Part shown: piece by piece, positions 4,506 to 61,951 of the stretch
How positions within the stretch are numbered: position 1 is the stretch's first letter
Layout: each line of letters opens with the position of its first letter
Virus record (IMG/VR): IMGVR_UViG_3300050015_000917
Span: 1 to 64,000 of that record
Reading direction: 5' to 3' (one strand)
DNA from: a virus
Length of the DNA: 64,000 nucleotides
Notes under the pieces: generated by a model
Seen by the model: only the letters and a program-made list of their open reading frames with translations
What the model was told of the DNA's origin: nothing
Database searches by the model: none
Translations under genes and position numbers: made by a program

Positions 4506-4523
4506 ATATTTTTTATTTTATTT

Positions 4524-11540: not shown

Positions 11541-11564
11541 ATAAAGAAATTTGAATATAAAGAA

Positions 11565-11600
11565 AAGGAGAAGAAAAATTTAAGCTTCTCTTTTTTTTTG
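11565..11600 (+). terminator. Rho-independent terminator after S1-like gene
   Basis: GGAGAAG (11567-11573) pairs with CTTCTC (11585-11590), directly followed by nine T residues (11591-11599). The A-tract before the stem can extend the pairing. It ends the single-gene S1 unit. Confidence 0.85.
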
Positions 11601-11632
11601 CGGATAAATAAATAAAATAGTTGTGAAAGATA

Positions 11633-13060: not shown

Positions 13061-13066
13061 TAAATT

Positions 13067-13801
13067 ATGATTAAAAGTGCATTTGTTCAAAGAATTGTTG
13101 GAGAACTAACAGCTTCGGGAGCTCTTCCATATAGTCCTCCCCCACAAGAATTCGAACGTATTGTAGATAAGGAAATGAGATTTCTTTATCGAGAATATAG
13201 AGAGCTTCTCTATGATAAAATTTATATTATTAATAGAAGATATTATCAAACTCAAGCTTGGAGAGATAGTAGAACCTTTCAGATGAATAACTGTACGGAA
13301 GGGATAAAACAGGTTAAGGAAATGACTGGGGGAAGTAGAGTATTTGGTATCAACGACCCAGATTTAAATTTTGATAGATTAATGGCTTCAGATTTATATT
13401 TAACTCCATTATCTTCAGATCAAATTACCTATCGTACAATTCAGTGGAGTTTTTGGGATCTTGCAAGAGCATTTAATCTTGTGGATATTAATCATGACTT
13501 TAATCCAAATACCCATAGGCTTTCAATTACTGGTCGTACTCCAATTCAGAGTTTATTTGTTTTAGCTTTGGATCAGATCCCTTTAGAGGATGCTTTCGAG
13601 GATACAATTGTTTTAGATTGGATGGTTGCTAAAAGTAAACTTTCGATGGCTCGTATTCTCGGAACTTTTAATTATCAACTTCTTGGCAATATTCAGATTA
13701 ATTATGATAATTTAAGAGTAGAAGGAACTTCAGAAATCGAAGCATTAAAGGAAAAAATTGCGTCGGACAACCCCCCAGATTGGTTCCTCATGTTTCCATA
13801 A
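13067..13801 (+). CDS. Putative virion connector/neck protein
   Basis: 244 residues without a family I can name with certainty. It has helical N-terminal segments (FERIVDKEMRFLYREYRELL) and a C-terminal part containing DWMVAKSKLSMARILGTF and YQLLGNIQINYDNL, a pattern I associate with small phage head-tail or tail-completion proteins. It follows the amidoligase-like gene by six bases and precedes the homing endonuclease. Function is uncertain. Confidence 0.35.
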   Translation: MIKSAFVQRIVGELTASGALPYSPPPQEFERIVDKEMRFLYREYRELLYDKIYIINRRYYQTQAWRDSRTFQMNNCTEGIKQVKEMTGGSRVFGINDPDLNFDRLMASDLYLTPLSSDQITYRTIQWSFWDLARAFNLVDINHDFNPNTHRLSITGRTPIQSLFVLALDQIPLEDAFEDTIVLDWMVAKSKLSMARILGTFNYQLLGNIQINYDNLRVEGTSEIEALKEKIASDNPPDWFLMFP

Positions 13802-13816
13802 AGAATTGATATTCAA

Positions 13817-14482
13817 ATGTTTATAGGAGTTATATATCGAGTAACAAGTCCTAGCAATAAAAAATACTATGGACAAACAACTTCAAAATTTGAGGCTCGA
13901 AAGAAAAGTCATTATAAAGATGCTTTTATTAGACAACTTCAAGGTTCCTTTCAGAGATCATTAAGAAAATACGGATGGGACAATTTTAAATGGGATATAA
14001 TAGAAACTTATGAAAATGATGATAAAATAGAACTTGTAAAAATATTAAATGATAGAGAGTTATTTTGGATTAAAAAGGATTTGACCTATCTGCCGGAATT
14101 TGGGTATAATATGAAAATAGGACCTAGTTATGGCTTTCATAATGATGAATGTAAAGATAAAATTAGACAGACTTTATTGGGGGTTGAACATACAGAAGAA
14201 AGAAAACATAATCAGTCACTTTCTCAAATTGGTTTACCACATGCTCAAAATTTTGGACCTCCTAGATATGGAAAGGATAATAGTTCATATAAAATAGTTT
14301 CTAAGGAAGATAGAGATTTAATTTTAGATTTATATAACAAAGGATTTGGTTCTCGAAGAATTGAGACAGCATTAGATAATAAATATAGTTTTATAAAAAT
14401 TCTTAAAATAATAAAAGCTGCTGGAGTTTATAAACCTCACAAATTTGATGGAAATATAAATAGAGCAAAGACGGTAAAATGA
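13817..14482 (+). CDS. GIY-YIG homing endonuclease
   Basis: 221 residues. The N-terminus has the GIY-YIG signature in variant form (GVIYRV ... KKYYGQT), followed by R/H-containing helix segments (ARKKSHYKDAF) and the catalytic-region element NDRELFWIKK. Residues ~110-140 contain a NUMOD3-type DNA-binding motif (HNDECKDKIRQT ... HTEERKHNQSLSQIG), and the C-terminus looks like a helix-turn-helix (GFGSRRIETALD). These free-standing enzymes cut intron-less or endonuclease-less alleles and spread between phages. It overlaps the next gene by four bases (ATGA) and sits at the upstream edge of the tagged-protein array. Confidence 0.85.
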   Translation: MFIGVIYRVTSPSNKKYYGQTTSKFEARKKSHYKDAFIRQLQGSFQRSLRKYGWDNFKWDIIETYENDDKIELVKILNDRELFWIKKDLTYLPEFGYNMKIGPSYGFHNDECKDKIRQTLLGVEHTEERKHNQSLSQIGLPHAQNFGPPRYGKDNSSYKIVSKEDRDLILDLYNKGFGSRRIETALDNKYSFIKILKIIKAAGVYKPHKFDGNINRAKTVK

Positions 14483-14946
14483 TAGTTAAAGAAAGCATAA
14501 ATTTTGAAAGAGGATTAGAACCCAAACAAGCTTTGAATGTTGGAAAACTTCATTTAATTCAGCAATGGTTAGATGATGCTGGTGTTGGAATAAAAAATTT
14601 TAAAATTAATGATGATTTTTCTATAGATCTTTTTTTACCATTTACAATGAATCAGCAAAGACCAGATTTATTTCCAGATGGTAAGTTACCAGAATATATC
14701 GAATTTAAATCTACAAAAGATTTTGATGTTGATGATTGTGGTATAGTTTCTTTAGAAAGATTTCCTCTTTTTGTTATAGGATATTTTTCTTGCCAAATGA
14801 ATAAAATAACTTCTCTAGAAGGATTTCCTAGAAAAATAGTTAGGAATGCTTATGTGATGGGAAATGAAAAGAGATTTACGGAACACGATATTAGACAAAA
14901 ATGTAACGTCGTTGGTGATGTAGAAGCAGATGATTCGGATGTATGA
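14479..14946 (+). CDS. Tagged LRR-like protein (NFERG tag)
   Basis: 155 residues. Residues 3-22 are the shared tag (VKESINFERGLEPKQALNVG). The C-terminal half is an LRR-like module: short repeats around SLERFP, NKITSLEGFP and YVMGN, ending with FTEHDIRQKCNVVGDV. The same module, with the same ending, occurs at 16041-16916 (twice) and in the 21991-22434 protein, each time after a tag. Start ATG overlaps the stop of the endonuclease. If the tag is a packaging signal, as I propose, this would be a small internal virion protein. Its biochemical role is unknown. Confidence 0.6.
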   Translation: MIVKESINFERGLEPKQALNVGKLHLIQQWLDDAGVGIKNFKINDDFSIDLFLPFTMNQQRPDLFPDGKLPEYIEFKSTKDFDVDDCGIVSLERFPLFVIGYFSCQMNKITSLEGFPRKIVRNAYVMGNEKRFTEHDIRQKCNVVGDVEADDSDV

Positions 14947-16916
14947 AATTAGTTAGCGAAAATATTAACTTTGAGAGGGGAATGGATCCTATGACTGCCA
15001 TGGATATTGGTATGTTCCATTTTGATGTTGAATTCTCTGGAGATCTTGAAGGATGGGAAGAGTCAGAAAAAACTAAAGCTAAAAAATGGCACTATGGAGA
15101 TGTAAAAATTTTATCTATTGAAGGAAGTACTGATGAAACCAATGCGGAACTTTATATAAATTTATCTGATGGCGATTATATTAGATTTATTTCTTATTAT
15201 AGTTTTGAACCATTTCATTCAGATAAATATCATGGGAAAAAAGATTGTGCTTTAATATCTATAAAATCAAGAAAACTAGTAGATTCTGATGTTTTTGAAA
15301 AATATGAGGAGGAACTTGAAAATGGTTCTATCATTTTGGCTGTCATGAGAATATATGAAAATATAAAAAATGAATCTATTAAAGAAAGTATTAATTTTCA
15401 AAGAGGTCAGGATCCTAAAAAAGCTATGGAAATTGGAATACCCACATGGGAAACTTTACAAGAGGGTGATATAATATACGTGCCAAAAGGGGTAGGAATA
15501 AAAAACGATAGAATTTCGGAATCGCACGCTCATGGTTATTTCCCGGGTGGAACTATTTTAAAAGTTCGAGAATTAGATAATGCTTCTACAAAAGAATGGG
15601 TTCTTCGATATATTTATTTTTCTAGTATGGAAGATTATAATGGAAAAAATGAACAAGATAGATTTGGATATCTTGCAGGAACTCCTAAACAATTTAGAGA
15701 AAAATTCAAATTACTCCCAAGAAGCATGAATGAAGTTCAGAATTTCGAAAGAGGAATAGATCCTAAAGAAGCTATGGAAATAGGAGATAAAGTTCTTACT
15801 AGAAAAATTATTGAAGAAACTATATGGGAATTACCTCAGGATCTTATTCATCAAAATTTTAATATTTTAGGATTAATCAAAAAATTTCGAGGAGAACCCA
15901 TCCTAATAATGAAAACTAAAAGCGACGGGGATGGAGATGGAAAAAAATACATTGCAATGGCTCCAGATTATAGATCTGATTATTATAAAACTCCAAAAGA
16001 AGCTGTAGAAGAGGTAAAAGCTTATTTAGATAAACATCCGATTAAGGAATCTTTGAATTTTGAAAGAGGAATAGAGCCTAAAAGTTCAATGGGCATCGGT
16101 AAAAAAGCTCTTATCGAAACTTGGTTAAAGGAACAAGATTTATACGAGGATGCAATTATCGACAAGGATCTTATTATAAACATTCCTTCGGAAATTAATT
16201 TAGTAGTTTCTTTAAGAAATAAAGATATAGAAGAACTTCCTCCGTATATTCAATTTGGAAAAGTTTGTGGAGGTTTTGATATTTCAGATAATAATTTAAA
16301 AACTTTAAGAGGTTGTCCTACACAGGTTCTTGAAACTCCCGATCTTAAAGGGAATTTCAAATGCTTTGGTAATCAACTTAGCTCTTTAGAATTTGCGCCA
16401 AAAAGAATAGATGGAAATTTTCTTTGTCAAGGGAATCCCGGGCATTTTACTCGAAAAGATGTTATAAAAGTTTGTAAAGTAAAATCCGGAATAATTTGGT
16501 CTGATGATAATATGATAAAGGAATCTATGGATTTTCAAAGAAACGAAGATCCTATGGAAGCTATGGATTTAGGATTTCATGCTCAAATAATAAATTGGTT
16601 TAAGTCCTATGGAATATATCAGGATGAAATTAATGAGCATTATATAGAATATAGAATAAATAAAGATGGAACTATTGATGTATTAGAAGATATAAATCTT
16701 GTAGGAGCTCATATAAATAATTTCCCTTATTTTATTCATTTTAATAAAATATATGGAGGTTTCTATGTAGCTCATAATATTTTCACAAATCTGAGAGGAT
16801 TTCCAAAAGAAGTAGATGGAGATTTTAGTATTTACTCAGCTCAACCAGGAGCTAAAAAATGGAAAGAATCAGAGATTAGGAAAAGGGTTAAAGTAAAAGG
16901 AACAATTTGGAATTAA
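14943..16916 (+). CDS. Five-tag multi-module protein (candidate polyprotein)
   Basis: 657 residues made of five units, each opened by the shared tag: residue 3 (VSENINFERGMDPMTAMDIG), ~146 (IKESINFQRGQDPKKAMEIG), ~262 (NEVQNFERGIDPKEAMEIG), ~367 (IKESLNFERGIEPKSSMGIG) and ~525 (IKESMDFQRNEDPMEAMDLG). Unit 2 is an SH3/OB-like beta module (EGDIIYVPKGVG). Unit 3 is the ETxW/LIKKFRGEPILIMK module also found in minus-strand tagged proteins. Units 4 and 5 are LRR-like modules ending FTRKDVIKVCKV and KESEIRKRVKV. The reading frame is intact, so the units are translated as one chain. Either this is one modular protein or it is cut at the tags. Confidence 0.6.
   Translation: MKLVSENINFERGMDPMTAMDIGMFHFDVEFSGDLEGWEESEKTKAKKWHYGDVKILSIEGSTDETNAELYINLSDGDYIRFISYYSFEPFHSDKYHGKKDCALISIKSRKLVDSDVFEKYEEELENGSIILAVMRIYENIKNESIKESINFQRGQDPKKAMEIGIPTWETLQEGDIIYVPKGVGIKNDRISESHAHGYFPGGTILKVRELDNASTKEWVLRYIYFSSMEDYNGKNEQDRFGYLAGTPKQFREKFKLLPRSMNEVQNFERGIDPKEAMEIGDKVLTRKIIEETIWELPQDLIHQNFNILGLIKKFRGEPILIMKTKSDGDGDGKKYIAMAPDYRSDYYKTPKEAVEEVKAYLDKHPIKESLNFERGIEPKSSMGIGKKALIETWLKEQDLYEDAIIDKDLIINIPSEINLVVSLRNKDIEELPPYIQFGKVCGGFDISDNNLKTLRGCPTQVLETPDLKGNFKCFGNQLSSLEFAPKRIDGNFLCQGNPGHFTRKDVIKVCKVKSGIIWSDDNMIKESMDFQRNEDPMEAMDLGFHAQIINWFKSYGIYQDEINEHYIEYRINKDGTIDVLEDINLVGAHINNFPYFIHFNKIYGGFYVAHNIFTNLRGFPKEVDGDFSIYSAQPGAKKWKESEIRKRVKVKGTIWN
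14949..16573 (+). repeat. Five in-frame copies of the NFERG tag
   Basis: Copies lie at about 14949-15011, 15378-15437, 15726-15786, 16041-16100 and 16514-16573. Each encodes about 20 residues of the form x-E-S-(I/L)-(N/D)-F-(E/Q)-R-(G/N)-x-(D/E)-P-x-x-(A/S)-M-x-(I/L)-G. The spacing (105-160 codons) matches one folded module between tags. Confidence 0.85.
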
Positions 16917-16936
16917 AATATTAAAATATAAAAAAT

Positions 16937-18694
16937 ATGAAAGAATTTTATCCTAAATTAAGAAATTTTATATCTGAAGCAAAGGGAGGATTAGAAATTC
17001 CGAAATCCGCTAAAATAGAGGATTATGGATACGTGTTTGCTAAAGATGGAACTAAAATAGACATGAGACATTTAAAGACCGAAATGGATAGTGCTAAAAC
17101 TGCTATCGTTTCTCAAAGCCAATTATTTGCTCCTTATGTTCATAAGTTTACTCCAATTTATACATGGTTAGTTCCTACTATGGCAACTGATGGAACTCGT
17201 CTCTTTGTTAATCCTAGCTTTGCTAATAAATTAAGCTGGAATCAAATAATATTTGTTCTTGTTCATGAGATTATGCATTGCGTACTTCTTCATATGGATA
17301 GAATGAAAACTAGAAATGCTATAGTTCAAACTTCAGACGGCAAACCTGCTTCTCTTTTTAATATTGCAGGGGATTATGAAATAAATGATATTATCGTTGA
17401 TACTTTAAATGATTTTGATGAAGAATTTGTTAAAAAACTTGGAGGTCTTTATGATGCTAAGTGGCTTAATATACCCGTTGAAGTTATTTATGACGAACTT
17501 AAGAAAACAATTCCCAAAATGCCACCTAATCCAGCTTCAAAGAATAATCAAGGACAAAATCAAGGAGAAGGAGGATCTGGCGGGGGAGCTGGAGGTCAAG
17601 GACAACCAGGGGGAAAAGGAAAAGGGGGAGGAAAACAGCCTTTAGCGGTTGGTTCCAAAGTTAAAATTAAAGCTACAGGTCAAAAGGGAATTGTTACAGC
17701 TGTTAACGCAGATGGAACTTTTGAAGTAAATCCCCTTAATGAAGCTTTTATTTATCCTAGATTAATTAATGAAGGATATAAACAAGAAGAATTAATTTCT
17801 ATTAGTGATGGGGGAGATGGTGAAGGAGAAGGTGAAGGAGGAGAAGGCGGAGGTGAAGGAGATAATAGTGGCGGTGTAGGGGGAGCTGGTGATGAAGGAT
17901 ATGATGAAACATTAGATCAAACTGGAGAATTTGATCCTGCAGGAACTGGCGGCATTATTTCTCCTGAAATGGGAAAGAAAATTGCTAAAGCTAGCGGATA
18001 CGGTGAAGGAGAAATGGGTCCTGATGAAAATCCAACCGATAAATGGAGAGTTGAAGGATCTAAGATGCTTGACCGTGCTGAAAAGGGACAAAAAGGAAGA
18101 GGGCGGGGAAAGGGAGAATCCCTTGTAAAAGCTCTTTATCGTCTCCATAGAGGGGATGTTAACTGGAAAAATCTTTTTAGAAGATATGTTGCGACAGCAC
18201 TTTCCCCTGAGGTTTATCAAAAAATTGGAAATAAAAAACATCTAGGCGGAGAATATCTTCGTTATGGAGAAAAGCATAAGCAAGATGCTATGGAAAATAT
18301 AGTCGTCTTAGTTGACGTTTCCGGATCTATGGGTCAAGAAGCTCTTAATAAAATTATTAATGAAATAAATCAAATTATCTTTTCAAAAAGAGTAAACAAA
18401 ATAACTATTGCTTTCTTTGATGATGGGGTTGACGATAAGAGTGTTCAAACTATTAAAAGAATGGGAAAACCTTATATTCCTAAAGGAATTAGCGGGGGAG
18501 GGGGAACAGACTTCCAGAAAGCTCTTGATTGGGTTCATGAACATTTAAAAGACCGAGTTTCCCTATTGGTATTTATGACTGATGGGGGTGCTCCTAATCC
18601 AAAGAAACCACCTTATGCTCATAAATTTATTTGGATAATTTATGGTAATCCAGGATGGAAACAGCCATTTGGTAAACAAATTAATTTAGGATAA
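16937..18694 (+). CDS. VWA-domain protein with HExxH metallopeptidase-like N-terminal domain
   Basis: 585 residues. The N-terminus MKEFYPKLRNFISEA resembles the T4 internal-protein targeting peptide. Residues ~100-120 contain the zinc-peptidase motif VHEIMHCVLLH (H110, E111, H114), as in the DUF2201 metallopeptidase-like domain. A glycine-rich linker holds a KOW-like piece (VGSKVKIKATGQKGIVTAV, ~235-260). The C-terminal third is a VWA domain with the MIDAS residues DVSGS (~460), GGTD and FMTDGG. DUF2201/VWA proteins normally work with MoxR AAA+ ATPases. One is encoded nearby at 20356-21975, with two ankyrin genes between. The target is unknown. Confidence 0.75.
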   Translation: MKEFYPKLRNFISEAKGGLEIPKSAKIEDYGYVFAKDGTKIDMRHLKTEMDSAKTAIVSQSQLFAPYVHKFTPIYTWLVPTMATDGTRLFVNPSFANKLSWNQIIFVLVHEIMHCVLLHMDRMKTRNAIVQTSDGKPASLFNIAGDYEINDIIVDTLNDFDEEFVKKLGGLYDAKWLNIPVEVIYDELKKTIPKMPPNPASKNNQGQNQGEGGSGGGAGGQGQPGGKGKGGGKQPLAVGSKVKIKATGQKGIVTAVNADGTFEVNPLNEAFIYPRLINEGYKQEELISISDGGDGEGEGEGGEGGGEGDNSGGVGGAGDEGYDETLDQTGEFDPAGTGGIISPEMGKKIAKASGYGEGEMGPDENPTDKWRVEGSKMLDRAEKGQKGRGRGKGESLVKALYRLHRGDVNWKNLFRRYVATALSPEVYQKIGNKKHLGGEYLRYGEKHKQDAMENIVVLVDVSGSMGQEALNKIINEINQIIFSKRVNKITIAFFDDGVDDKSVQTIKRMGKPYIPKGISGGGGTDFQKALDWVHEHLKDRVSLLVFMTDGGAPNPKKPPYAHKFIWIIYGNPGWKQPFGKQINLG

Positions 18695-19620
18695 TGATTG
18701 TTAGGGAAAGTATTAATTTCACTCGAAGCGGAAATCCTATTGAAACAATGAGAATAGGAAAAGCAGGACTCTTTCTTCAAATTATAGAGAAAATAAGGAA
18801 TGAATTTGCTTGGGATCCGGTAAAAGATAAAGATTTAATCCCACAATCTCTATCTCAGTTAACTGAAAATAATTTATATGGAATTGATACAAAGAAATTT
18901 CTAAGATTATATGCTGAAGAGCATAAAAATAAAAATTCTGTTATTCGTGAAATTCTAAAAGAAATTATGGATAAAGTTTTAACATTTAATCCAAATAAAT
19001 TAGAGCATCACGCTGGATTCTGGGTAAACTTATTTTTTGTTTTAGGAAGAGCAGAAGATATATGGAGTAATCCAAAATGGATAAACGATTTTACCTTTAA
19101 TGAATTTCGTCAGTATGATTCAAAGAGAACACTTGAAGAAACAAAAAAACTTGGAGCAAATAAAGCTTTTCTTTTAGGATCCACTCGAGGGGAAAGAGAA
19201 TTAGAAATATGGGGGATTGAAAATGGAGCAACAAACTTGAATCATACTTATAACGAACCTATTCAAAATGCTTGTCAACAAGGAGATGCAGAATTGGTAA
19301 AATTATTATTAGCAAGCCCAATAGTTAACCCAGGCGATAATACAAAAAGTGGTAAAAGATATAAAAGTGACGAAACAAATTTCTGTATTAGAAGAGCAGC
19401 AAAAGAAGGGCATTTAGAGGTTGTAAAATTACTATTAAATGATAAAAGAGTAAATCCAGCAAGCAAAGCAAATTGGGCTTTAGCTGCTGCTTTGTCTAAT
19501 GAAAATATAAAAATGTGTCAATTACTTTTAACTAATCAAAGGGTTAGAGATAATATTTTTAATATGAAGGAATCTTCTATAAAAAAATTCAATAGTTACA
19601 AAGGAGCGGGGGAGTTATGA
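18694..19620 (+). CDS. Tagged ankyrin-repeat protein
   Basis: 308 residues. The tag is at residues 2-22 (IVRESINFTRSGNPIETMRI). The middle is helical and unassigned. Residues ~185-290 form ankyrin-type repeats: NEPIQNACQQGDAELVKLLL, NFCIRRAAKEGHLEVVKLLL and NWALAAALSNENIKMCQLLL, with the linkers NPGDN and VNPASK. Ankyrin repeats mediate protein-protein binding. Start overlaps the stop of the VWA gene by one base. Together with the tag this suggests a binding protein carried in the virion or attached to the VWA/MoxR machinery. Ankyrin assignment is firm; role is inference. Confidence 0.75.
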   Translation: MIVRESINFTRSGNPIETMRIGKAGLFLQIIEKIRNEFAWDPVKDKDLIPQSLSQLTENNLYGIDTKKFLRLYAEEHKNKNSVIREILKEIMDKVLTFNPNKLEHHAGFWVNLFFVLGRAEDIWSNPKWINDFTFNEFRQYDSKRTLEETKKLGANKAFLLGSTRGERELEIWGIENGATNLNHTYNEPIQNACQQGDAELVKLLLASPIVNPGDNTKSGKRYKSDETNFCIRRAAKEGHLEVVKLLLNDKRVNPASKANWALAAALSNENIKMCQLLLTNQRVRDNIFNMKESSIKKFNSYKGAGEL

Positions 19621-20336
19621 TAGTTAGAGAATCCTTAGGATTTACAAGAGGGGGTGATGTCAAAGCCGAAATAGGTATTGGCAGAGAAAAACTTATTGGC
19701 GATTTTGTAAAAGAAGTAAGCAATATTCCTCAACAAAGGCATCAGATATTAGATCCTGCAAATAAAAATGAAGTTCTTTATAAAGCAGCTTTAATGGGAA
19801 GAGCCGATATTATTAAACTTCTTCTTTCAGATCCTTCAGCTAATCCAGCATATCGAAAAAATGCTGTTGTTGCTATTGCTGCTATGAAAGGATCAGTTGA
19901 AGCTGTAGATGCTCTTTTAAAAGATGATAGGGTAAATCCTGCTGATAATCATAATGAAGCTTTATATCAAGCTGTTAAAAATAATCAATTGGAAGTTGTT
20001 AAGAGACTTATGGAGGATCCGAGAGTTAATCCAGCCGATAGTAAAGAATCCTTGGATAGGAATTCTAATACAGTTTTAAATGACAATTATATTATTTTAG
20101 AAGCTGCTTCTAATCAATATATTGCTATTATAAAAGAATTAATAAAAGATCCAAGAGTTAAGATTAAAAGATCCATACAATTAGTTGCTTCTAAATTAAG
20201 TAAAGTAGGAATAATGGGTCCTCAAATAGAAGCTTGGAAACCAATTTTAGATTTTTTAATTAATCATCACAAAGCTCAAGAGGAATTAACAGACAAAGAA
20301 ATAATAAGATTTAAAGAAAAGATAAATAAAGTATAA
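19617..20336 (+). CDS. Tagged ankyrin-repeat protein, second copy
   Basis: 239 residues. A diverged tag is at residues 2-22 (IVRESLGFTRGGDVKAEIGI). Ankyrin repeats follow from about residue 45: KNEVLYKAALMGRADIIKLL, NAVVAIAAMKGSVEAVDALL and NEALYQAVKNNQLEVVKRLM, each followed by D-x-R-V-N-P-A-D-type loops, then a shorter one (YIILEAASNQYIAIIKELI). It overlaps the previous ankyrin gene by four bases (ATGA) and precedes the MoxR-type ATPase. The two ankyrin proteins share the tag and the repeats but differ in their middle parts. Confidence 0.75.
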   Translation: MIVRESLGFTRGGDVKAEIGIGREKLIGDFVKEVSNIPQQRHQILDPANKNEVLYKAALMGRADIIKLLLSDPSANPAYRKNAVVAIAAMKGSVEAVDALLKDDRVNPADNHNEALYQAVKNNQLEVVKRLMEDPRVNPADSKESLDRNSNTVLNDNYIILEAASNQYIAIIKELIKDPRVKIKRSIQLVASKLSKVGIMGPQIEAWKPILDFLINHHKAQEELTDKEIIRFKEKINKV

Positions 20337-20355
20337 AAATAAAACTTGAACTACA

Positions 20356-21975
20356 ATGAAGAAACAATTAGTATTTGAATCCCTTCAGGATTTTCAAATT
20401 AACCAGGGAGAATTAAATGAAGCTATATTTAGCAAAATCGGGGGAGCTATTAAGAAATTTTTCCAAAAAATAGGAAAACTCTTCTTTTTTATGTTCCAAG
20501 GCAAACCAACTACAGAAGCTATGGCTCCTGTTAATATTGGTATCCTGGTTAAAGAAGGCGCTCTTTTTAAAGGAATTTCTTATGTTCCATCAAAATCAGA
20601 TATTGAGGTAAACCCCCAATTAGGATCTCTTACTAGAGAAATGCTTATTCAAAAAAGAGGAGGAAATAATGTTCAAGAAAGTGTTGTTAATGAGGCTAAA
20701 ATCTCTCTTGATCATCCCGATAAAAATGTACCAAATGTAGATAAAAAAGGATTTCAAAGAAGGGTTCGTATGTGTATTAAATATCCCAGAATTAAACCTG
20801 TTATGATTTGGGGAGCACCTGGGATAGGAAAAACACAAATAGTAAAATCTGTTTTGGAATTAGTAAATCCTCAAGGAAGACTTATTGATGTACAAACATC
20901 TAAAATGGCTCCTGATGATTGGTCACTTCCTGCAACTTATAAAATAGATGATGAACTTAAAGCAAGGGATATTCCTAAATCCTGGCTTCCTGTTTACATT
21001 AAAAGCGATGATGCAGCTGAAAATAAAAGAAGAGATGAGATTGCTAATTTTGGCGATGGCGGGGTTCTTTTCTTAGATGAACTTTCTCGTGCACCTAGTT
21101 CAGTTCAAAATACTTGTTTGAAACTTATCGATGAAAGAATAATTGGTGATGCAATTTTAGGTTCTAAATGGTCAATTATTTCAGCATCTAATAGAGCAGG
21201 AGATGATTCAGAAAGCGTTCAGAACTTTTCAACAGCTTTAGGAAATAGATTTTCCCAGATAAATTATATTCCTGATTTCAAAGGATGGAAAGAATGGGCT
21301 TCAACTAAAGGAAGAGAAACCCCAGAAAAAACTCAGGAAAAAGGTAAAAAGCAAGAATATAATAAAACGGATCCTTCTAAAAGTCCAATAGATTCTCGTA
21401 TTGTTGACTTCTTGGAATTTAATCAAGAATATTTCTATACTCTTGATGATGATCCGGAAAAGAGTATCTTTGCATCTCCTCGTTCATGGGAAGCTGCTTC
21501 AAATAATATAGCTGCTCTTATGCAAGATGCTAAAGATGAAGGCTATAATGTAACCAATAAGGATATTACTGAGGTAGTTGGTTCTGATGTTGGTATGGAT
21601 ATTGCAACAGAATTTCAGACATTCCTAAGACTTCTTGAATCATTCAAAAAAGAAGATATTAAAGAAGTTCTTACCCACCCAGATAAGGCACGTATGCCTA
21701 AAAAAGCTGGTTCAGGATTTGATCAGTCAGAAGCTAATGCTCTTATCTCTCTCGTTTGTACATCAACAAGGGGAAGAGATATTACTCCAGATGAATTTAA
21801 TAACTTTGTAACATATCTTATTCGTCTTGATAATGGTTCACTTGCAACAAGAGGATTAAAAATGATGATTGATATTCATCCTTATATTCACGAAGAACTT
21901 GGTGAAGTTGAAGGAAGAGACAAATACAAAGAAGGCGTAGATAGATTTATTGTTAAATACAAAGATATTTTCTAA
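20356..21975 (+). CDS. MoxR-type AAA+ ATPase
   Basis: 539 residues. An N-terminal extension of ~125 residues begins MKKQLVFESLQDFQ, related to the shared tag, and contains a hydrophobic/basic stretch (IKKFFQKIGKLFFFMFQGK). The AAA+ core shows Walker A GAPGIGKT (~153-160), Walker B GGVLFLDELSRAP (~235-247) and a sensor-like SIISASNRAG. MoxR ATPases remodel or activate partners together with VWA proteins, and the VWA/HExxH protein upstream is the obvious candidate. It has its own A-rich leader (TATAAAAATAAAAC) 20 bases before the ATG. The N-terminal extension is unusual for MoxR proteins and might target it to the capsid or a membrane. Confidence 0.8.
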   Translation: MKKQLVFESLQDFQINQGELNEAIFSKIGGAIKKFFQKIGKLFFFMFQGKPTTEAMAPVNIGILVKEGALFKGISYVPSKSDIEVNPQLGSLTREMLIQKRGGNNVQESVVNEAKISLDHPDKNVPNVDKKGFQRRVRMCIKYPRIKPVMIWGAPGIGKTQIVKSVLELVNPQGRLIDVQTSKMAPDDWSLPATYKIDDELKARDIPKSWLPVYIKSDDAAENKRRDEIANFGDGGVLFLDELSRAPSSVQNTCLKLIDERIIGDAILGSKWSIISASNRAGDDSESVQNFSTALGNRFSQINYIPDFKGWKEWASTKGRETPEKTQEKGKKQEYNKTDPSKSPIDSRIVDFLEFNQEYFYTLDDDPEKSIFASPRSWEAASNNIAALMQDAKDEGYNVTNKDITEVVGSDVGMDIATEFQTFLRLLESFKKEDIKEVLTHPDKARMPKKAGSGFDQSEANALISLVCTSTRGRDITPDEFNNFVTYLIRLDNGSLATRGLKMMIDIHPYIHEELGEVEGRDKYKEGVDRFIVKYKDIF

Positions 21976-21990
21976 AATAAAACTTAATAT

Positions 21991-22434
21991 ATGAAGCTTG
22001 TTCTTGAAAGCTTACTAGAATTTCAGAGGGGAAGAAACCCCTCTGAAGTTTTGTCATTAGGTAAGAAAAAGGAAATTGATATATGGTTAAAGCAATATAT
22101 TCCTTTTTCTCGAGCTAGGATCAATTCAGAGTGGACCATTGATACAAAAGAAGTGGTTATTCCTCAAAATAAAGCTATTTATGAAATTCCAGAAGATATT
22201 CAATTTAATATTTGCAGTGGAAATTTTTTTATAAGAGATAATTATTTAAAATCTATGAATGGATGTCCAAAAATAGTGAAGGGTGATTTTATGGTAGATG
22301 GGAATAAATTAGTGAATCTTGATGGATGTCCTGAAGAGGTTAGTGGGGATTTCTATATTAAGAAAAATGAAAATAAATTTACTGTTGACGAAATCAAAAA
22401 AATCTGTAACGTTGGCGGTCGTATTGTTGTATGA
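21991..22434 (+). CDS. Tagged LRR-like protein
   Basis: 147 residues. Tag at 3-24 in the variant form LVLESLLEFQRGRNPSEVLSL. An LRR-like module follows (IRDNYLKSMNGCP, MVDGNKLVNLDGCPEEVSGD), ending FTVDEIKKICNVGGRIVV. This is the fourth copy of the same tag-plus-LRR unit in the region. It overlaps the next gene by four bases. The LRR assignment is by pattern; its binding target is unknown. Confidence 0.6.
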   Translation: MKLVLESLLEFQRGRNPSEVLSLGKKKEIDIWLKQYIPFSRARINSEWTIDTKEVVIPQNKAIYEIPEDIQFNICSGNFFIRDNYLKSMNGCPKIVKGDFMVDGNKLVNLDGCPEEVSGDFYIKKNENKFTVDEIKKICNVGGRIVV

Positions 22435-22730
22435 TAGTTCAAGAAACCATAGATTTTCAAAGAGGAAAAGATCCTAGAGATACTTTACAACTAGGTAGGA
22501 AAATTATTCTTAAATTATGTAATGATTATCGAATTGAGGGGTTTTTAAGAAATAAAAAAGAAGCGGAATATTTCATAAGACAAATTAATGTTGATATGCG
22601 ACAAGCTTATGAAGAAGCTGGGGATGATGGCCAAAGGGAATCAGATGCAAGAGAGATAAGAGATAATGTTTTTTATAAATATGAAAAACAATTAGAAGAA
22701 GAAACTGGATTTAAATTAGTTGATGAATAA
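22431..22730 (+). CDS. Small tagged hypothetical protein
   Basis: 99 residues: the tag at 2-22 (IVQETIDFQRGKDPRDTLQL) and then a charged helical segment (KEAEYFIRQINVDMRQAYEE). No known domain is recognised. It lies between tagged neighbours with overlaps at both ends, so it is probably co-translated with them. Confidence 0.55.
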   Translation: MIVQETIDFQRGKDPRDTLQLGRKIILKLCNDYRIEGFLRNKKEAEYFIRQINVDMRQAYEEAGDDGQRESDAREIRDNVFYKYEKQLEEETGFKLVDE

Positions 22731-23908
22731 TGGCTTTGGTAAAAGAATATATCGATTACGATCGAGAGGATAGGCAAGAATTAGAACTTATTAAAATTCT
22801 TGAAATCGGTCTTCTTAAAAAAGTTAGGGAGTATGCAAAAGAAAAAGGCTGGGATTCTCCAGAAGAATGGATTCCAAATATACTTAATGACCCTCAGCTA
22901 GGAGAAGAAACCCGGGATTTTTGGGTTCAAGCTCTTCTTAATCATGGCCATTTTAAATCTGGGGTAGTTAGGGAATCCCTTGATTTCGAAAGAGGATTAA
23001 CTCCTAAGCAATCTCTTGGAATAGGTATTGAAGAAACTATTAGAAATTTTTTAGATGATAAAACAAGTTCAAGCCCATCTTTATGGATTTCATATTTATT
23101 AAATGAAGGAAGAGAAGAAGAGCTAGACAGGGAAACCAGAGACAAATGGATCAAATTTCTTATTACAAAACCAGAATATAATAAGGATCTAGATGAAAAT
23201 GATTATCTTGAATTAGCATATAGAGAAATTGAATGGATTCCCTATGCTCCGTTTAAAGATGATAATTTTAAATATAAATTTACAGAAAATAGTTATGTTC
23301 TTTATTTTAAGGATTGGGGTAATTTTGCAGATTATTTTGATACAACTTCAAGAGATGTAAATTCGCAATTTATCGAAGCAGTTTTATCTGGAGATGGTTC
23401 TTATGAATATTTTGATTATGGCGTAAGAGAATATAAAGACATTACGGATTTTGCATGGCCTATTAATAGAGTTCTGCAAAAAGGAAAACAAATCCCTGCT
23501 ATAAAAGATCTAAAAGATAAAGCTATTGAAATGGGAGCAGACCCGAATAAAACGGAAACAATAGATGATCTTTTAGAAGAAATTCAGGAAAATGAAGATC
23601 TATCAGATCTCTGTGATGCTGTTAGATTTGCTTATAGTGAAGCTACAGCTCTTGCTGATGAATCTGAAGCTTATATGGATTTACAAAGAGCTATTAAAAA
23701 GCATTATCATATTGGGGATGCTAAATATGATGAAAGCAAAGAATTTTTTGTAGCTCCTTGTGATTTTGAAGGTATTAAACTTTTATCATTTACACTAGCA
23801 ACCGGAGAAGATAAAATTGAATATAATCCTCCACAAAGTTATAGCGGAGATATGACAATGGAAGATATAAATGATTCGCTCATTAATAAATTAGATGATT
23901 TGGAATGA
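22730..23908 (+). CDS. Two-unit tagged protein
   Basis: 392 residues. The N-terminus LVKEYIDYDREDRQELELIK is a degenerate tag, and a clear one lies at about 79-99 (VVRESLDFERGLTPKQSLGI). The two short helical segments after each tag are similar to one another (EWIPNILNDPQLGEETRDFW and LWISYLLNEGREEELDRETR), so the unit was duplicated. The C-terminal ~200 residues are acidic, with the element LCDAVRFAYSEATALADE, and are not recognised. Start ATG overlaps the previous TAA by one base. Confidence 0.55.
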   Translation: MALVKEYIDYDREDRQELELIKILEIGLLKKVREYAKEKGWDSPEEWIPNILNDPQLGEETRDFWVQALLNHGHFKSGVVRESLDFERGLTPKQSLGIGIEETIRNFLDDKTSSSPSLWISYLLNEGREEELDRETRDKWIKFLITKPEYNKDLDENDYLELAYREIEWIPYAPFKDDNFKYKFTENSYVLYFKDWGNFADYFDTTSRDVNSQFIEAVLSGDGSYEYFDYGVREYKDITDFAWPINRVLQKGKQIPAIKDLKDKAIEMGADPNKTETIDDLLEEIQENEDLSDLCDAVRFAYSEATALADESEAYMDLQRAIKKHYHIGDAKYDESKEFFVAPCDFEGIKLLSFTLATGEDKIEYNPPQSYSGDMTMEDINDSLINKLDDLE

Positions 23909-24537
23909 AAAAGCTAGTTTGCGAATCCATAGAACAATTATTTGAGAGCCCAGATGAGATTTCTCTTCCTAATCTTACTTATAATAGATTTGGGGAACCC
24001 GTGAATAGTGATCCATCTAAATCTCCTTATTTTACAGATGAAGACGCTCATCCTTTTTGGTATGATGAAGAAGGTAATTTTATTTTAGGACCAGCAGGGC
24101 AAACGCATCCAGAGGGGATTAGGAAACAGGGAAGATTTTTCTCAGGAAGAGTATGGCTAAATAAAAAAATGATTAGTTTTTGGGAATATCCGGATGCTGA
24201 AGATTTTTTGCTTCTTATTTCGGATCTTGAAAAAGAACTTGGCCAGCCTATTTTAGGTAAAAAATGGAAGATTGAAGTATTAGATATGGATTGGCAGAAA
24301 TTAAAAGATCAGAAAAGACCAGATGGATTTAAAACGGAATTAGTTTCTGTAAAAGATTATCAAAGAAGCGAACAAAGAACTGAAGAAGATTTTGGGCAGG
24401 AACATATTAAATCTCCTTTATTCAAAGCAAAACATGTTGCTCCGGGATTTGGTTCTAAAGATCCAGCTTATCAAGTAAAAAGAGCATGGCAAATGGCCTC
24501 AATTACAAGTGAAGGATTCAAAAAATTAAAATATTAG
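23905..24537 (+). CDS. Hypothetical protein with MKKLVCES N-terminus
   Basis: 210 residues. The first 13 residues, MKKLVCESIEQLF, are nearly the same as those of the unrelated protein at 36393-37130 (MKKLVCESLEELY). That points to a second, shorter version of the targeting N-terminus. The rest (FWYDEEGNFILGP, RFFSGRVWLNKKMISFW, WKIEVLDMDW) is not recognised. It overlaps its upstream neighbour by four bases. Confidence 0.5.
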   Translation: MKKLVCESIEQLFESPDEISLPNLTYNRFGEPVNSDPSKSPYFTDEDAHPFWYDEEGNFILGPAGQTHPEGIRKQGRFFSGRVWLNKKMISFWEYPDAEDFLLLISDLEKELGQPILGKKWKIEVLDMDWQKLKDQKRPDGFKTELVSVKDYQRSEQRTEEDFGQEHIKSPLFKAKHVAPGFGSKDPAYQVKRAWQMASITSEGFKKLKY

Positions 24538-24541
24538 AATC

Positions 24542-25057
24542 ATGATAGTACGAGAAGGATTGAATTTTGAAAGAGGGCAAGATCCAAAGGATGCTATGAA
24601 TATAGGCAATGAGAAAATTCGAAATTTAAGTCGAGATTATAATTATTTAGGCCCTATTATTAAAAATCTTCAAGCACCTGATGATGAATTTACTTTTGGG
24701 ACAATAAGACATAAAATAGATGGGCTTAAGAAAGTCATTGAATTAATTATTATTGAATTCTTACGAAAAAAATACGAAATACAATTTCAAGAAGATTCTG
24801 AACTAACTAGTGGATCCGGTGATAATTTATTTGCTTCCGCAAAAGTTGGTAATTATCAATACGAGCTTCGAAAAAATGGAGTTGGTAGCACTTATTGGGC
24901 AAAAGTTATAAGTCTTAAAGGAGAAACTTTAAATACTAGAAACTCAATTTTTGTAAATGAGCCACCTATAAAAGAAGATTTTTTCCAAACTTCTCAATCT
25001 TCTTCACTAAGGATTTTTGATGAAAAATTTCAAAAGCTTCTGAAAAAATATCATTAA
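24542..25057 (+). CDS. Tagged hypothetical protein
   Basis: 171 residues. Tag at 2-22 (IVREGLNFERGQDPKDAMNI). The remainder is mixed alpha/beta with no recognised family (VIELIIIEFLRKKYEIQFQE, NYQYELRKNGVG). It is the last plus-strand gene before the lysozyme, and its TAA overlaps the converging lysozyme gene's end by four bases. No terminator hairpin is visible between them. Confidence 0.5.
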   Translation: MIVREGLNFERGQDPKDAMNIGNEKIRNLSRDYNYLGPIIKNLQAPDDEFTFGTIRHKIDGLKKVIELIIIEFLRKKYEIQFQEDSELTSGSGDNLFASAKVGNYQYELRKNGVGSTYWAKVISLKGETLNTRNSIFVNEPPIKEDFFQTSQSSSLRIFDEKFQKLLKKYH

Positions 25058-25863
25058 ATTAATCCCTTCAAAAATAATTTCTTTTCAGCTTCTCTTCTTG
25101 GTTCTAATCCAGGAAATTTATCATCAGTATTCGTAGTTAAAATACTATCTGCTGCTGTTAGATAATCTTCTTGTTTTAAAGCTTGAACTATATCAGATCC
25201 TCTTAGACCATTTACTCCCATATTAAATGCCATTGAAATCATAGAATCCCACATACTTTGAGAAATCTGAACAACTAATCCCTGACCCATCCATTTTTTA
25301 AAAAGTCTTCTTATTCCATCTTCAGTCTTTTTAATGTCCTTTTTAAAAAGTCTCTCAGCTTCATATTTAGATATTTTTTGTCCTATAACGTATTTAGAGA
25401 TGCCTACGGGCTCAGCATGACCCCAACCAATGGTTATCATACCATCTCCCATTTCATAAGCTTCTAGATAAAGCTTTTCATATCCTCGTATAAAATTTAA
25501 ACCATTATTACTAGTTTTTAAGATTAGCGGGTCTTGAAGAATATCATAATTGAGTTTTGTCCCTTGCTCCTTTTCTTTCCAAAAATAAAGATTAAAAAGA
25601 TCATCAAATTTTTCATCTACCTCAGATTTAGTTAATTCTGGATTTTTAGCCATAAGAAGAACCAGAGGAGTATTTTGTACTTCCTGTTTTGAAGGAAGTT
25701 CCTTAAATCCTTTATCACTGGCTGTTAATAGAAATAAGGATGCTATGATAGCAGCTTTTTTAACTTTATCTTTAATAGAATTAATATCCAAACGTTCATT
25801 GAGAATTTCATGAGCAAGAAATTCCTCATTTAGAAATGGATATACGGATTCAGCAATAAACAT
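25054..25863 (-). CDS. GH24-type lysozyme with targeting-like N-terminus and hydrophobic segment
   Basis: 269 residues. The N-terminus MFIAESVYPFL has the same x-E-S pattern as the tagged proteins. A hydrophobic stretch follows at ~36-50 (KAAIIASLFLLTAS). The C-terminal domain from about 125 matches phage (T4-type) lysozyme: GYEKLYLEAYEMGDGMITIG and WGHAEPVG, with a catalytic Glu candidate and Thr 15 residues later as in T4 lysozyme, then MWDSMISMAFNMGVNGLRGS. The Asp usually nine residues after Glu is not exactly in register, although Asp lies two residues further on. It could be an endolysin, possibly signal-anchor type, or a virion-associated lysozyme. It is a lone minus-strand gene with its own promoter-like box. 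Confidence 0.8.
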   Translation of the reverse strand: MFIAESVYPFLNEEFLAHEILNERLDINSIKDKVKKAAIIASLFLLTASDKGFKELPSKQEVQNTPLVLLMAKNPELTKSEVDEKFDDLFNLYFWKEKEQGTKLNYDILQDPLILKTSNNGLNFIRGYEKLYLEAYEMGDGMITIGWGHAEPVGISKYVIGQKISKYEAERLFKKDIKKTEDGIRRLFKKWMGQGLVVQISQSMWDSMISMAFNMGVNGLRGSDIVQALKQEDYLTAADSILTTNTDDKFPGLEPRREAEKKLFLKGLI

Positions 25864-25929
25864 TGGATCTAGTTTTCTTTATATATTCTGGTCTTTCGTT
25901 AGTATAAAGATATATAAATAAAAACTGTA
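25864..25929. promoter_or_regulatory. Divergent late-promoter-like pair between lysozyme and baseplate operon
   Basis: In 66 bases two copies of the recurrent box face away from each other. On the minus strand it reads GAATATATAAAGAAAAC (complement of about 25874-25890), and on the plus strand GATATATAAATAAAAAC (25909-25925). The plus copy contains the exact T4 late promoter core TATAAATA, 12 bases before the gp25-like start. Function is inferred. Confidence 0.6.
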
Positions 25930-26292: not shown

Positions 26293-26308
26293 AATATAAA
26301 AATAAATT

Positions 26309-28500: not shown

Positions 28501-28506
28501 TAATCT

Positions 28507-33492: not shown

Positions 33493-34902
33493 TTATTGGT
33501 GCATAATCCATCTATCTTCGTCTGGATTTTCTGGTTGAATGGCATAATTAGCTGTTCGGATTTCTCCTAAATATCGAACCCAAATTCTTCTAACTTTCCA
33601 AGCAGGTTTTTTATTTGAAAGCATGGTTTTCGTTATTGGGTTGTCATTCGAATCTGTGTCCTCATCCTCATTTATTCTAAGTTCTACAAGTCTTTTCTCA
33701 CTGGGTATCCAAACTTTTACCCTATCCCCTTTTTTATATGGTTGAGTATATTTTCCAATTCTCATAGACTTTTTGGGTTCCATTCCTCTTTGAAAGTGAT
33801 AAACTTCCCGAACTGGATCATGTGGTAACGGAGTTAATTGTTTAAGAATTTCTGTTAATCCTTCTTCAGCAGTTGCGAGAATTTTCTCTTTCATTATTTT
33901 TCCCTCAATACGATAGCCATAAGAAAAATAATCTTCTTGGGTTTCTATTTCTGTGGATGCTTTAGCAGGATAATATCGAATAAAAAAATTATCTGCTCTA
34001 AAAATTTTATCATATCCCGGGGGCATAAAATATGTTCCTTCGATAATACCTAGTGAATAAGGAAAAACATTAGATATTTTATATTCCCCTCCTCTTATTT
34101 CAACCAATAGATCTAGGACCTTTTTAATAGCACGTTCTCCTACTCTCCCTATTTTCATACTATCTTTAGGATCCTGTCCTCTTTCAAAATTTTGGGACTC
34201 ATTAGTTTTATTAATATGAGCATCTATAGCCTTTTTGACTTTTTCCAAAGCCTTTTCTGGAATTTTTGATACCTCTCCCCCCAATTTTGTTATAAATGCA
34301 GAAGTTCCTATATAATAAGTTTCCCCGGCAAAATAAGTTTCCCCCTCATCCTCTACCTTTTGGGGAACTTTTGAACTCATAAGTAATATTGGAAATCCTT
34401 TATAATCTTTTATTAAATCAATAATTTTATATTCTTTTGGATTATAAGTTACCCACCAATCGGTTTCTTCAATAAATTTTATGTCTAAATAAGTTTGACC
34501 AATAGTCATAGATTTTTTGGGTTCTACCCCTCTTGTAAAATACTGAGCTTCTTGCATTCTCGGAACTAATTCTAATAGGTTTTCTAATTGAAGAGGAGTT
34601 CCCCAGATAAAAATATCATCAGAAGTTCGAGTATTTTTATCTCCGAGATAAGCTGTAAATCCGATACAACCATCATCATATAATTCAGAGTCTGTATTAA
34701 TTTGAAGATAATACCCTTTCGGAAAAATATGATAGCGGGAATCATCCCTAATTTCATGTTGAGAATCGGTTGTAAATTCTTTTATTATTTTTAAAATATC
34801 CCCTTTTTTTAAAGACAACCATTTTTGGACAAGACCAATTCTCATAGATTTTTTGGGGTCTATTCCACGTTCAAAATGAATATTTTCCCTAACTAGTTTC
34901 AT
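33493..34902 (-). CDS. Four-tag multi-module protein (candidate polyprotein)
   Basis: 469 residues in four units, each opened by a tag: LVRENIHFERGIDPKKSMRI, QEAQYFTRGVEPKKSMTIG, NESQNFERGQDPKDSMKIG and REVYHFQRGMEPKKSMRIG. Unit 1 is an SH3/OB-like module (KKGDILKII). Unit 2 is the ETDW ... LIKDYKGFPILLMS ... YYIGTSAF module. Unit 3 is unrecognised. Unit 4 is a small beta module (KKGDRVKVWIPSEKR). Units 1-2 have the same order as units 2-3 of the plus-strand protein at 14943, and even the junction is alike (LVPRMQEAQYF versus LLPRSMNEVQNF). Confidence 0.6.
   Translation of the reverse strand: MKLVRENIHFERGIDPKKSMRIGLVQKWLSLKKGDILKIIKEFTTDSQHEIRDDSRYHIFPKGYYLQINTDSELYDDGCIGFTAYLGDKNTRTSDDIFIWGTPLQLENLLELVPRMQEAQYFTRGVEPKKSMTIGQTYLDIKFIEETDWWVTYNPKEYKIIDLIKDYKGFPILLMSSKVPQKVEDEGETYFAGETYYIGTSAFITKLGGEVSKIPEKALEKVKKAIDAHINKTNESQNFERGQDPKDSMKIGRVGERAIKKVLDLLVEIRGGEYKISNVFPYSLGIIEGTYFMPPGYDKIFRADNFFIRYYPAKASTEIETQEDYFSYGYRIEGKIMKEKILATAEEGLTEILKQLTPLPHDPVREVYHFQRGMEPKKSMRIGKYTQPYKKGDRVKVWIPSEKRLVELRINEDEDTDSNDNPITKTMLSNKKPAWKVRRIWVRYLGEIRTANYAIQPENPDEDRWIMHQ
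33755..34897 (-). repeat. Four in-frame copies of the NFERG tag
   Basis: Copies lie at about 34838-34897, 34499-34554, 34147-34203 and 33755-33811 on the minus strand. All retain the P-K-(K/D)-S-M-x-I-G end. Only the FERG/FTRG/FQRG core and the residues before it vary. Confidence 0.85.
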
Positions 34903-40589: not shown

Positions 40590-41999
40590 TTAGAAATTGA
40601 CATTCATTCCAGAGTTTCTCATTATCTGTCTCATAGCTGAATCACTATGTATAGACATCCAGTATCTAGATTGGGATGCAATTTGATCTTTAATATACCA
40701 TGTAATATTTTTGTAATCTTTTTTTCTGAAATCAATTGCCGAAATATGATCAAGAATATCATCCAAAGTATCAGCAAAAAATCTGCTTAACTCATTATCA
40801 TTTATTTCTGGAATATTTTTCCTAATAATTTCAGCTATTTCTTTATTGTTTATATCGTAAGTATATCCTTCGTGTTCAAGTCCTTGTATATTTTTTATAA
40901 GAAAACCTCCCCAGCCTATATTCATAGCTTTTTTCGGTTCTTGTCCTCTCTCGAAATCCAGGGATTCATTATTATATCTTTTTAATCTTTGCTCTGCTTG
41001 TTTCTTTTCAATTCTTTCCCACTTTTTGAGATATTCTAAAGCATGCCGAAGTTCTTCTGTAGAGGCTTCTTCTAAAGTCGAAAGATCCCATGACCGAGAG
41101 CCAAAATGATGAGGGCTCAATGCATTCCGTATATAATCTGATAAGACAGAACTACCACTCCAGGATTCTGGATCATATTCTGTAATTTCTGCAATTAATT
41201 TTTGTTTTCTTTCCTCCACTCTTCCAATAGACATAGCATCTTTTGGATCTTGTCCTCTTTCAAAATTTAATGATTCTTTAATAAGTCCATCCGGTGTGAA
41301 AGCATTTTTAAAAAATTGCTGATATTCTGATTTAATAATTAATTTATGTTCAGTTCTCCAGGATCTTCCTTTTATTCTTGATAGTTTTTTCTGAATAGGT
41401 TTTATTTCTATATCACTAAAAAAGTCACTTCCGAAATTTTTCTTAACATAATTTAAGAAAAGTTTTTCATTATCAATATAATCTGTAACATCTAACCACG
41501 CACAATCTCTATTCCCCGAAATATTAATGGTGGAAACTCCCCTTTCACTTGAAAGCCCCCATATTCCTTTTTTAATTTTTGTAGGGAGACCCAATTTTAG
41601 GATTTCTCTCGGATTCTGTCCTCTCTCAAAATTTAACGATTCTTTGATAAGCCCATCTGGCGTAAAAGCATTTTTAAATATCTGGTGATATTCTGGTTTA
41701 ATGACAAGATGAAAAGTCCATCCTCCTTTTTTAAGAGAATTATTTCTTTGATCAATATCGCTAAAGAATTCTGTTCCAAAATTTTTGTAAACATTCTTTC
41801 TAAATATCTCTGAATCAGTGCCATAATCTTCTACTCTAAGCCAAACACGATCAAATCTCTCCATTAAATTAATAGAACCTGTTCCTCTTTCATGATAAAG
41901 ACCCCACAATCCATTTTTAATTTTTGTAGGGAGACCAATTTTCATGGAGGATTTAGGATCTAATCCTCTTTCGAAATTTATGTTTTCTTTAACTATCAT
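40590..41999 (-). CDS. Four-tag multi-module protein with a duplicated module
   Basis: 469 residues in four units after tags IVKENINFERGLDPKSSMKI, IKESLNFERGQNPREILKLG, IKESLNFERGQDPKDAMSIG and NNESLDFERGQEPKKAMNIG. Units 1 and 2 are clear duplicates of ~115 residues: both start GLPTKIKxGxWGL and end IFKNAFTPDGLIKES or FFKNAFTPDGLIKES. Unit 3 is a charged helical module and unit 4 is another alpha module (DDILDHISAIDFRKKDYKN). The stop of the gp5-like gene upstream overlaps its start by four bases. A cleavable polyprotein or a flexible modular protein are both possible. Confidence 0.6.
   Translation of the reverse strand: MIVKENINFERGLDPKSSMKIGLPTKIKNGLWGLYHERGTGSINLMERFDRVWLRVEDYGTDSEIFRKNVYKNFGTEFFSDIDQRNNSLKKGGWTFHLVIKPEYHQIFKNAFTPDGLIKESLNFERGQNPREILKLGLPTKIKKGIWGLSSERGVSTINISGNRDCAWLDVTDYIDNEKLFLNYVKKNFGSDFFSDIEIKPIQKKLSRIKGRSWRTEHKLIIKSEYQQFFKNAFTPDGLIKESLNFERGQDPKDAMSIGRVEERKQKLIAEITEYDPESWSGSSVLSDYIRNALSPHHFGSRSWDLSTLEEASTEELRHALEYLKKWERIEKKQAEQRLKRYNNESLDFERGQEPKKAMNIGWGGFLIKNIQGLEHEGYTYDINNKEIAEIIRKNIPEINDNELSRFFADTLDDILDHISAIDFRKKDYKNITWYIKDQIASQSRYWMSIHSDSAMRQIMRNSGMNVNF
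40916..41995 (-). repeat. Four in-frame copies of the NFERG tag with tandem module duplication
   Basis: Tags lie at about 41936-41995, 41590-41649, 41225-41283 and 40916-40970. The two segments between the first three tags are homologous at DNA and protein level, so the unit duplicated with its tag. Confidence 0.85.
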
Positions 42000-61945: not shown

Positions 61946-61951
61946 ATTAAT

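Follow-up and report, generated by a model that had tools for sequence, protein, structure and literature searches.

We find in a T4-type phage a gene pair, encoding a MoxR-type AAA+ ATPase and a protein that joins a DUF2201-type zinc metallopeptidase to a VWA domain, whose two products are probably targeted to the capsid, processed by the prohead protease and packaged in the phage head, from which they are perhaps ejected. The pair lies in the window analysed here (the whole stretch of 64,000 nucleotides, positions 1 to 64,000 of IMG/VR record IMGVR_UViG_3300050015_000917; Table 1). This window belongs to a 78,425-base virus record, and the same phage is also represented, with identical proteins, by a 132,831-base contig (G001). 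The existence of phage MoxR–VWA pairs is already known; what is new is a conserved leader region that, judged from sequence, makes the pair predicted head cargo. No capsid leader or protease site on a MoxR–VWA pair is described in the excerpts of open-access literature that we searched, and it is from such excerpts that published work is cited below. The first-pass annotation of this DNA had likened both N-termini to those of virion-internal proteins; within that idea, a removable capsid-targeting propeptide is supported by the relatives, by the capsid protein and protease that the phage itself encodes, and by T4 controls.

The same annotation had called the roughly 125-residue N-terminus of the ATPase unusual for its family, and the cellular relatives bear this out: among the best 80 of 545, Walker A lies in the first 60 residues in 71, at residues 61–100 in 1 and beyond residue 100 in 4; the other 4 have no Walker A match. 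The scan of related loci covers the best 80 of 281. Taking the best ATPase open reading frame (ORF) from each of 79 sources, we find Walker A at residues 100–320 in 57 (the extended ATPases), before residue 100 in 11 and beyond residue 320 in another 11, which the site analysis leaves out. An alignment of 34 members drawn from the 57 (near-duplicates, the partial L053 and the divergent L070, L076, L082, L084, L090 and L103 were left out) is invariant at just two positions N-terminal to the AAA+ domain, Glu22 and Glu113. Both fall in predicted disordered segments, with a predicted local distance difference test score (pLDDT) below 50 at residues 1–51 and 103–114 of the model and a small domain at about residues 52–100 between them; residues 26–39 may form an amphipathic helix. 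Around Glu22 the 34 ATPases carry L (22), I (4), V (3), M (1) or another residue (4) at P3, N (29) or D (5) at P2, and G (16), A (7), S (5), N (5) or I (1) at P1', and at the second site P3 is hydrophobic in 33 of 34.

How often should such a site appear by chance? Removing redundancy at 50% over 70 residues leaves 30 of the 57 extended ATPases, and 25 of these have the strict site [LIVM][ND]E[GASN] within residues 2–45; 2000 shuffles give 0.85 on average and 5 at most. One member, L003, falls outside this count with its LNE placed at residue 62. On the same loci, 17 of the 272 other ORFs that reach 200 amino acids have the strict site, as do 6 of 150 sequence windows inside the AAA+ domain; of the 71 short cellular relatives, 2 have it upstream of Walker A. 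Three of the four cellular cases with Walker A beyond residue 100 (L137–L139, from bacterial metagenome-assembled genome bins and with phage-like N-termini) carry the site, and the remaining one, L148, looks like a false start. The metallopeptidase–VWA partner has a predicted leader of its own, MKEFYPKLRNFISE, and a looser site, [ILVMF]xE[AGSTND] within residues 2–30, is found in 23 of 31 non-redundant HExxH partners (shuffle mean 6.6, maximum 14). Both N-termini thus resemble those of proteins inside T4-type heads, in line with what the first-pass annotation had noticed. Outside ATPases the N-terminal domain has no match at E<0.5 among the matches listed. At one related locus (L085) the N-terminal segment is encoded apart from the rest of the ATPase, in an ORF of its own at 9479–9823 (INE/G; a slash marks the predicted cut throughout) that gives a weak match (E=0.52) and lies 5' of an ATPase ORF at 9953–10732. 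This arrangement may be a natural split or a frameshift.

The phage also encodes a protease that could use these sites. In G001 an S77 (gp21-type) prohead protease is encoded at 60768–63302 (E=3.3e-16), followed by a Gp23-type capsid protein at 63376–65145 (E=8.1e-38) whose N-terminus reads KYAHYHALNE/AEMGG (LNE43). Capsid proteins of several related phages have LNE/S or LNE/N at a like place (for example L121, L122, L129 and L131), and those of another group have [IV][FY]E/[GA]. In the proteases themselves, [LIVF]NE/[SAGN] stands right behind the catalytic domain in 11 of 11 aligned S77 sequences of these phages, which is where C-terminal self-cleavage would be expected. Because the capsid and protease sites carry the same motif, the likely preference of the protease fits the first ATPase site, including Asn at P2. 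As T4 controls, the corresponding sites are LTE65/AEIG in gp23, ITE6/LFDE and LTE619/SVIY in Alt, and LRE10/STTT in gp24, in agreement with published cut positions (PMC9958956, PMC5694885). Of 18 extended-type records tested with a length of 100 kb or more, 15 encode an S77 protease. Two further observations concern these head genes. The protease of G001 is a single 844-amino-acid ORF, perhaps a protease–scaffold fusion, with a long C-terminal part bearing repeated VNE/LNE sites. At 54445–54999 (minus strand) a 184-amino-acid protein resembles by eye, over its first 40 residues, the N-terminus of the G001 major capsid protein (KWGPM...YAHxHA), and is a possible stand-alone paralogue of the capsid propeptide.

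Leader-like sites are not confined to the pair. In the half of G001 that holds the head and tail genes, 22 of 83 genes have an N-terminal [ILV]xE[SNAGTD] (residues 2–14), where shuffles give 5.0 on average; for the other half the figures are 5 of 123 genes and a shuffle average of 6.1 (Fisher p=3.6e-6 between halves). The contig also contains 28 copies of a module, NFERGxDPKxxMxIG, of which 24 have E at −2 or −3, and 22 of those have a hydrophobic P3. Several ORFs hold 3–5 copies in tandem, each internal copy lying behind an E site that is usually hydrophobic-x-E; such rows suggest polyproteins cut by the prohead protease. In the ORFs tested, neither Pfam nor PHROG gives a match to the modules. 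Separately, an endolysin-like protein at 25054–25863 (minus strand; phrog_7, E=1.1e-37) has the N-terminus MFIAESVYPFLNEEFLAHEILNERL, which contains several LNE sites and may be a leader, here attached to a lytic enzyme.

The identity of the two proteins is well anchored, and here the earlier assignment to a DUF2201 metallopeptidase–VWA protein and a MoxR ATPase holds: Pfam matches exceed the curated cut-offs and PHROG matches are found for both. In the first, DUF2201_N scores E=8.7e-22 (78.4 bits, cut-off 23.2) and the DUF2201 VWA domain E=5.4e-17 (62.5 bits, cut-off 26.4), with VWA_2 also above its cut-off, and phrog_1314 matches at E=1.6e-60. The label of that PHROG, HNH endonuclease, is rejected since the protein matches DUF2201_N/VWA and has HExxH and a metal-ion-dependent adhesion site (MIDAS). 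The residues named in the first-pass annotation, H110, E111 and H114 together with the MIDAS, are kept in relatives, so that no loss of catalytic residues is seen: these three and D460, S462, S464 and D549 are invariant in 7/7 and 23/23 sequences of two alignments, T524 is kept in 7/7 and in at least 90% of the 23, and H119 and D146 are also invariant in the 23. An AlphaFold2 model (mean pLDDT 73) matches VWA domains over its VWA part (best Z 12.7, root-mean-square deviation 2.9 over 148 residues), for which Foldseek lists the NorD VWA and the MDN1 MIDAS domain. The N-terminal peptidase domain has weak Foldseek matches only, to the minigluzincin selecase (E about 0.1), and the VIA structure list, filled by VWA rows, is uninformative on it. 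The ATPase matches AAA_5 (E=4.2e-10) and phrog_1297 (E=1.3e-48). W152–K159 (I157 in at least 90%), D241/E242, N279 (sensor 1) and R298 (arginine finger) are invariant in 34/34, and the AlphaFold2 model (mean pLDDT 79) finds its best PDB matches by Foldseek in NorQ–NorD VWA complexes (first E=8.2e-7), with CbbQ2 further down. By motifs, fold and VWA partner it is a MoxR member, predicted to form a hexamer and hydrolyse ATP.

Comparison with known systems helps to separate what is shared from what is particular to this pair. For group 2.2 jumbo phages, Iyer et al. (2021) describe MoxR–vWA pairs that include a fused metallopeptidase, and they propose a role in virion assembly with proteolysis (PMC7824862). 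Their pair (ASV44729.1, compared by description) shares with ours a MoxR AAA+ protein adjoining a VWA protein with an N-terminal metallopeptidase, in large T4-like phages; propeptide, protease sites and head packaging are unmentioned in the excerpts of that paper. Phage 0305phi8-36 also carries a MoxR pair (PMC2147016), and a MoxR-like ATPase was seen in a Staphylococcus jumbo-phage virion preparation, for which the authors want confirmation (PMC10638138). The N4 gp24/gp25-type pairs (Schitoviridae, RaK2, PA5oct, S-TIM5; PHROGs 1297 and 1314) consist of a homologous ATPase and DUF2201 protein, but those we checked are leaderless and have the AAA+ domain at the very N-terminus, unlike the extended ATPase here; the pairs of RaK2, PA5oct, S-TIM5 and KPP21 are all short, with neither extension nor leader. 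The PA5oct record annotates electrospray ionization tandem mass spectrometry (ESI-MS/MS) at its short ATPase. KPP21, which is N4-like, has no S77 protease match, and its pair is near the DNA polymerase. An isolate of an extended-type phage is not found among 50,697 phage records: of the 394 records that match, a single one covers 80% or more of the ATPase, and this one is metagenomic. NorQ–NorD and CbbQ–CbbO (CGN-type MoxR/VWA chaperones) share the AAA+ fold and a VWA partner with a MIDAS, but are bacterial metabolic chaperones without a capsid leader, and a HExxH domain in NorD is unmentioned in the excerpted text (PMC9976466). For the leaders, the precedent is the T4 internal proteins and Alt (PMC5694885, PMC9026906, PMC9958956), which have in common with our pair a short leader ending in hydrophobic-x-E, a gp21-type protease and a similar capsid site (LNE/AEMG here, LTE/AEIG in T4). 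They differ in that the cargo here is an AAA+/metallopeptidase pair and in that the second conserved site would strip a whole N-terminal domain.

Drawing on these parallels, we can sketch how the pair might work. Short N-terminal leaders, acting like the T4 capsid-targeting sequence, would direct the two proteins to the prohead core, where the S77 protease would cut after E14 of the VWA protein and after E22 and probably E113 of the ATPase. These cuts would free, inside the head, an AAA+ motor that has lost its N-terminal domain (the leader and residues 23–113), together with a peptidase–VWA adaptor. By analogy with NorQ–NorD, the VWA domain may dock on the AAA+ ring and recognise a target through the MIDAS metal; the ring would then pull the target using ATP and the HExxH domain would cut it. 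Given packaging, we lean slightly towards ejection with the DNA and action in the newly infected cell over work done only in the head, because the short form is intracellular in N4-like phages and in cells: the short pair occurs in bacteria and in KPP21, and its core activity therefore needs no head. A fuller scenario, which we offer only tentatively, is that an inactive unfoldase is packed with its adaptor, that the protease frees the motor in the manner of a zymogen, and that both are ejected with the DNA and the leader-tagged set, including polyproteins cut into several units, to unfold and cut host targets ahead of all phage gene expression. The cited literature assigns no target to the MoxR–VWA pairs of jumbo phages. 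If the leader is cut by the head protease, the machine would be placed in the virion. T4-type heads would then have an ATP-driven remodelling machine among their known cargo, and the rule [LIV]-N-E/[GASN] near the N-terminus could predict head cargo in uncultured phages.

Several observations weigh against packaging in the head. The loose site is present in both partners of only 16 of 26 non-redundant pairs (in 8 it is in the ATPase only, in 2 in the VWA protein only, and no pair is without it in at least one partner), and, as the sequences are related by descent, the shuffle counts overstate independence. Three of the 18 large extended records (G005, G024 and G032) have no S77 match, and RaK2 and PA5oct have an S77 protease yet a short, leaderless pair, so that a strict association between leader and protease is rejected. 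The neighbours of extended pairs, among them thymidylate synthase, homing endonucleases, RuvC, endolysin, NAD synthetase and Nudix, differ widely in kind and form no virion block; this survey scanned 106 of 135 listed ORFs. Neighbouring genes do not discriminate for or against a virion function, and we dropped them as a test of it. An intact AAA+ ring is too large for the tail tube; ejection therefore needs monomers or unfolding. In the open-access literature searched, no virion proteomics, expression or cleavage data were found for any extended member, and the virion proteome of S-CREM1 (14 proteins) omits its MoxR, for which short or extended form was unchecked (PMC9964418).

It is natural to ask whether the pair might instead finish its work in the prohead core, as a chaperone or peptidase that remodels or trims scaffold, portal or capsid proteins, with the cuts at E22 and E113 serving to activate or dispose of it and with no need of host entry. 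The same leaders and protease sites would be expected here, and the assembly and processing role proposed by Iyer et al., who cite a MoxR–vWA pair needed for an archaeal virus tail (PMC7824862), fits directly; we nevertheless hold it to be rather unlikely. Leaderless short homologues exist in bacterial chromosomes and in KPP21, near the DNA polymerase and with no S77 match, and the core activity is therefore independent of a T4-type head, while the neighbourhoods of extended pairs have no enrichment in head genes. Those short forms, which function without leaders, together with the coexistence of protease and short pair in RaK2 and PA5oct, the mixed neighbourhoods and the possible amphipathic helix at residues 26–39, could also be read as signs of a cytoplasmic machine that is never packaged, its extension being a regulatory or membrane-binding domain and its glutamates structural or otherwise employed. 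We consider this improbable: it does not easily account for two invariant glutamates that have a hydrophobic P3 and a mostly small P1' and lie in disordered segments of low conservation, and the same motif recurs at the capsid-protein and protease sites. Carriage in the head after trimming by the prohead protease, perhaps followed by ejection, is the reading that we retain as the likelier one.

At the locus itself, the two genes run in the same direction and the ORFs of both stand where the first-pass annotation had put them, but two ankyrin-repeat ORFs that it did not mention separate them. In L009, L010, L012 and L013 the VWA gene is immediately 5' of the ATPase gene (gap below 60 bases), and the ankyrin genes were therefore inserted in this branch or lost elsewhere. 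Neither gene has a clear Shine–Dalgarno sequence at its start; conserved N-termini of relatives back both start codons.

Table 1. Coordinates of the pair, its motifs and predicted cut sites (slash), and other leader-bearing or neighbouring ORFs.
Feature	Coordinates	Strand	Support
DUF2201-type zinc metallopeptidase (HExxH) + VWA protein, 585 aa (amino acids)	16937..18694	+	ORF call, Pfam, PHROG, alignment, AF2 (AlphaFold2) model, VWA fold
Predicted leader of VWA protein, site ISE14/A	16937..16978	+	residues 1–14 pLDDT <50; leader search
HEIMH (HExxH), residues 110–114	17264..17278	+	invariant 23/23
MIDAS DVSGS (DxSxS), residues 460–464	18314..18328	+	D460, S462, S464 invariant 23/23
Ankyrin-repeat protein, capsid-leader-like start MIVRE/SINFTR	18694..19620	+	ORF call, Pfam
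Second ankyrin-repeat protein, start MIVRE/SLGFTR	19617..20336	+	ORF call, Pfam
MoxR-type AAA+ ATPase, 539 aa, 125-residue N-terminal extension	20356..21975	+	ORF call, Pfam (AAA_5 above curated cut-off), PHROG, alignments, structure
Predicted propeptide of ATPase, residues 1–22, ending ELNE22/A; extra site VFE8/S inside	20356..20421	+	E22 34/34; P2 N/D 34/34
N-terminal amphipathic segment + small domain of ATPase, residues 23–113, bounded by second site VNE113/A	20422..20694	+	E113 34/34; disordered linker
Walker A WGAPGIGKT, residues 152–160	20809..20835	+	ATPase alignments
Walker B FLDE, residues 239–242	21070..21081	+	F239, D241, E242 invariant 34/34
Putative polyprotein, five NFERG modules; N-terminal copy after VSE/N, four internal after hydrophobic-x-E	14943..16916	+	
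Tandem-NFERG ORF in G001	30889–32472	+	
Putative polyprotein, four NFERG modules	33493..34902	-	
Putative polyprotein, four NFERG modules	40590..41999	-	

An Rfam scan of 10000–30000 gives no match. A GIY-YIG homing endonuclease gene at 13817–14482 (plus strand; Pfam E=2.4e-6, phrog_314 E=6e-21) sits between a head–tail adaptor-like gene and the leader-tagged genes. At 2376–5825 (minus strand) there are two adjoining proteins made of repeats such as GTLDVSGLTGLGGxFxV.

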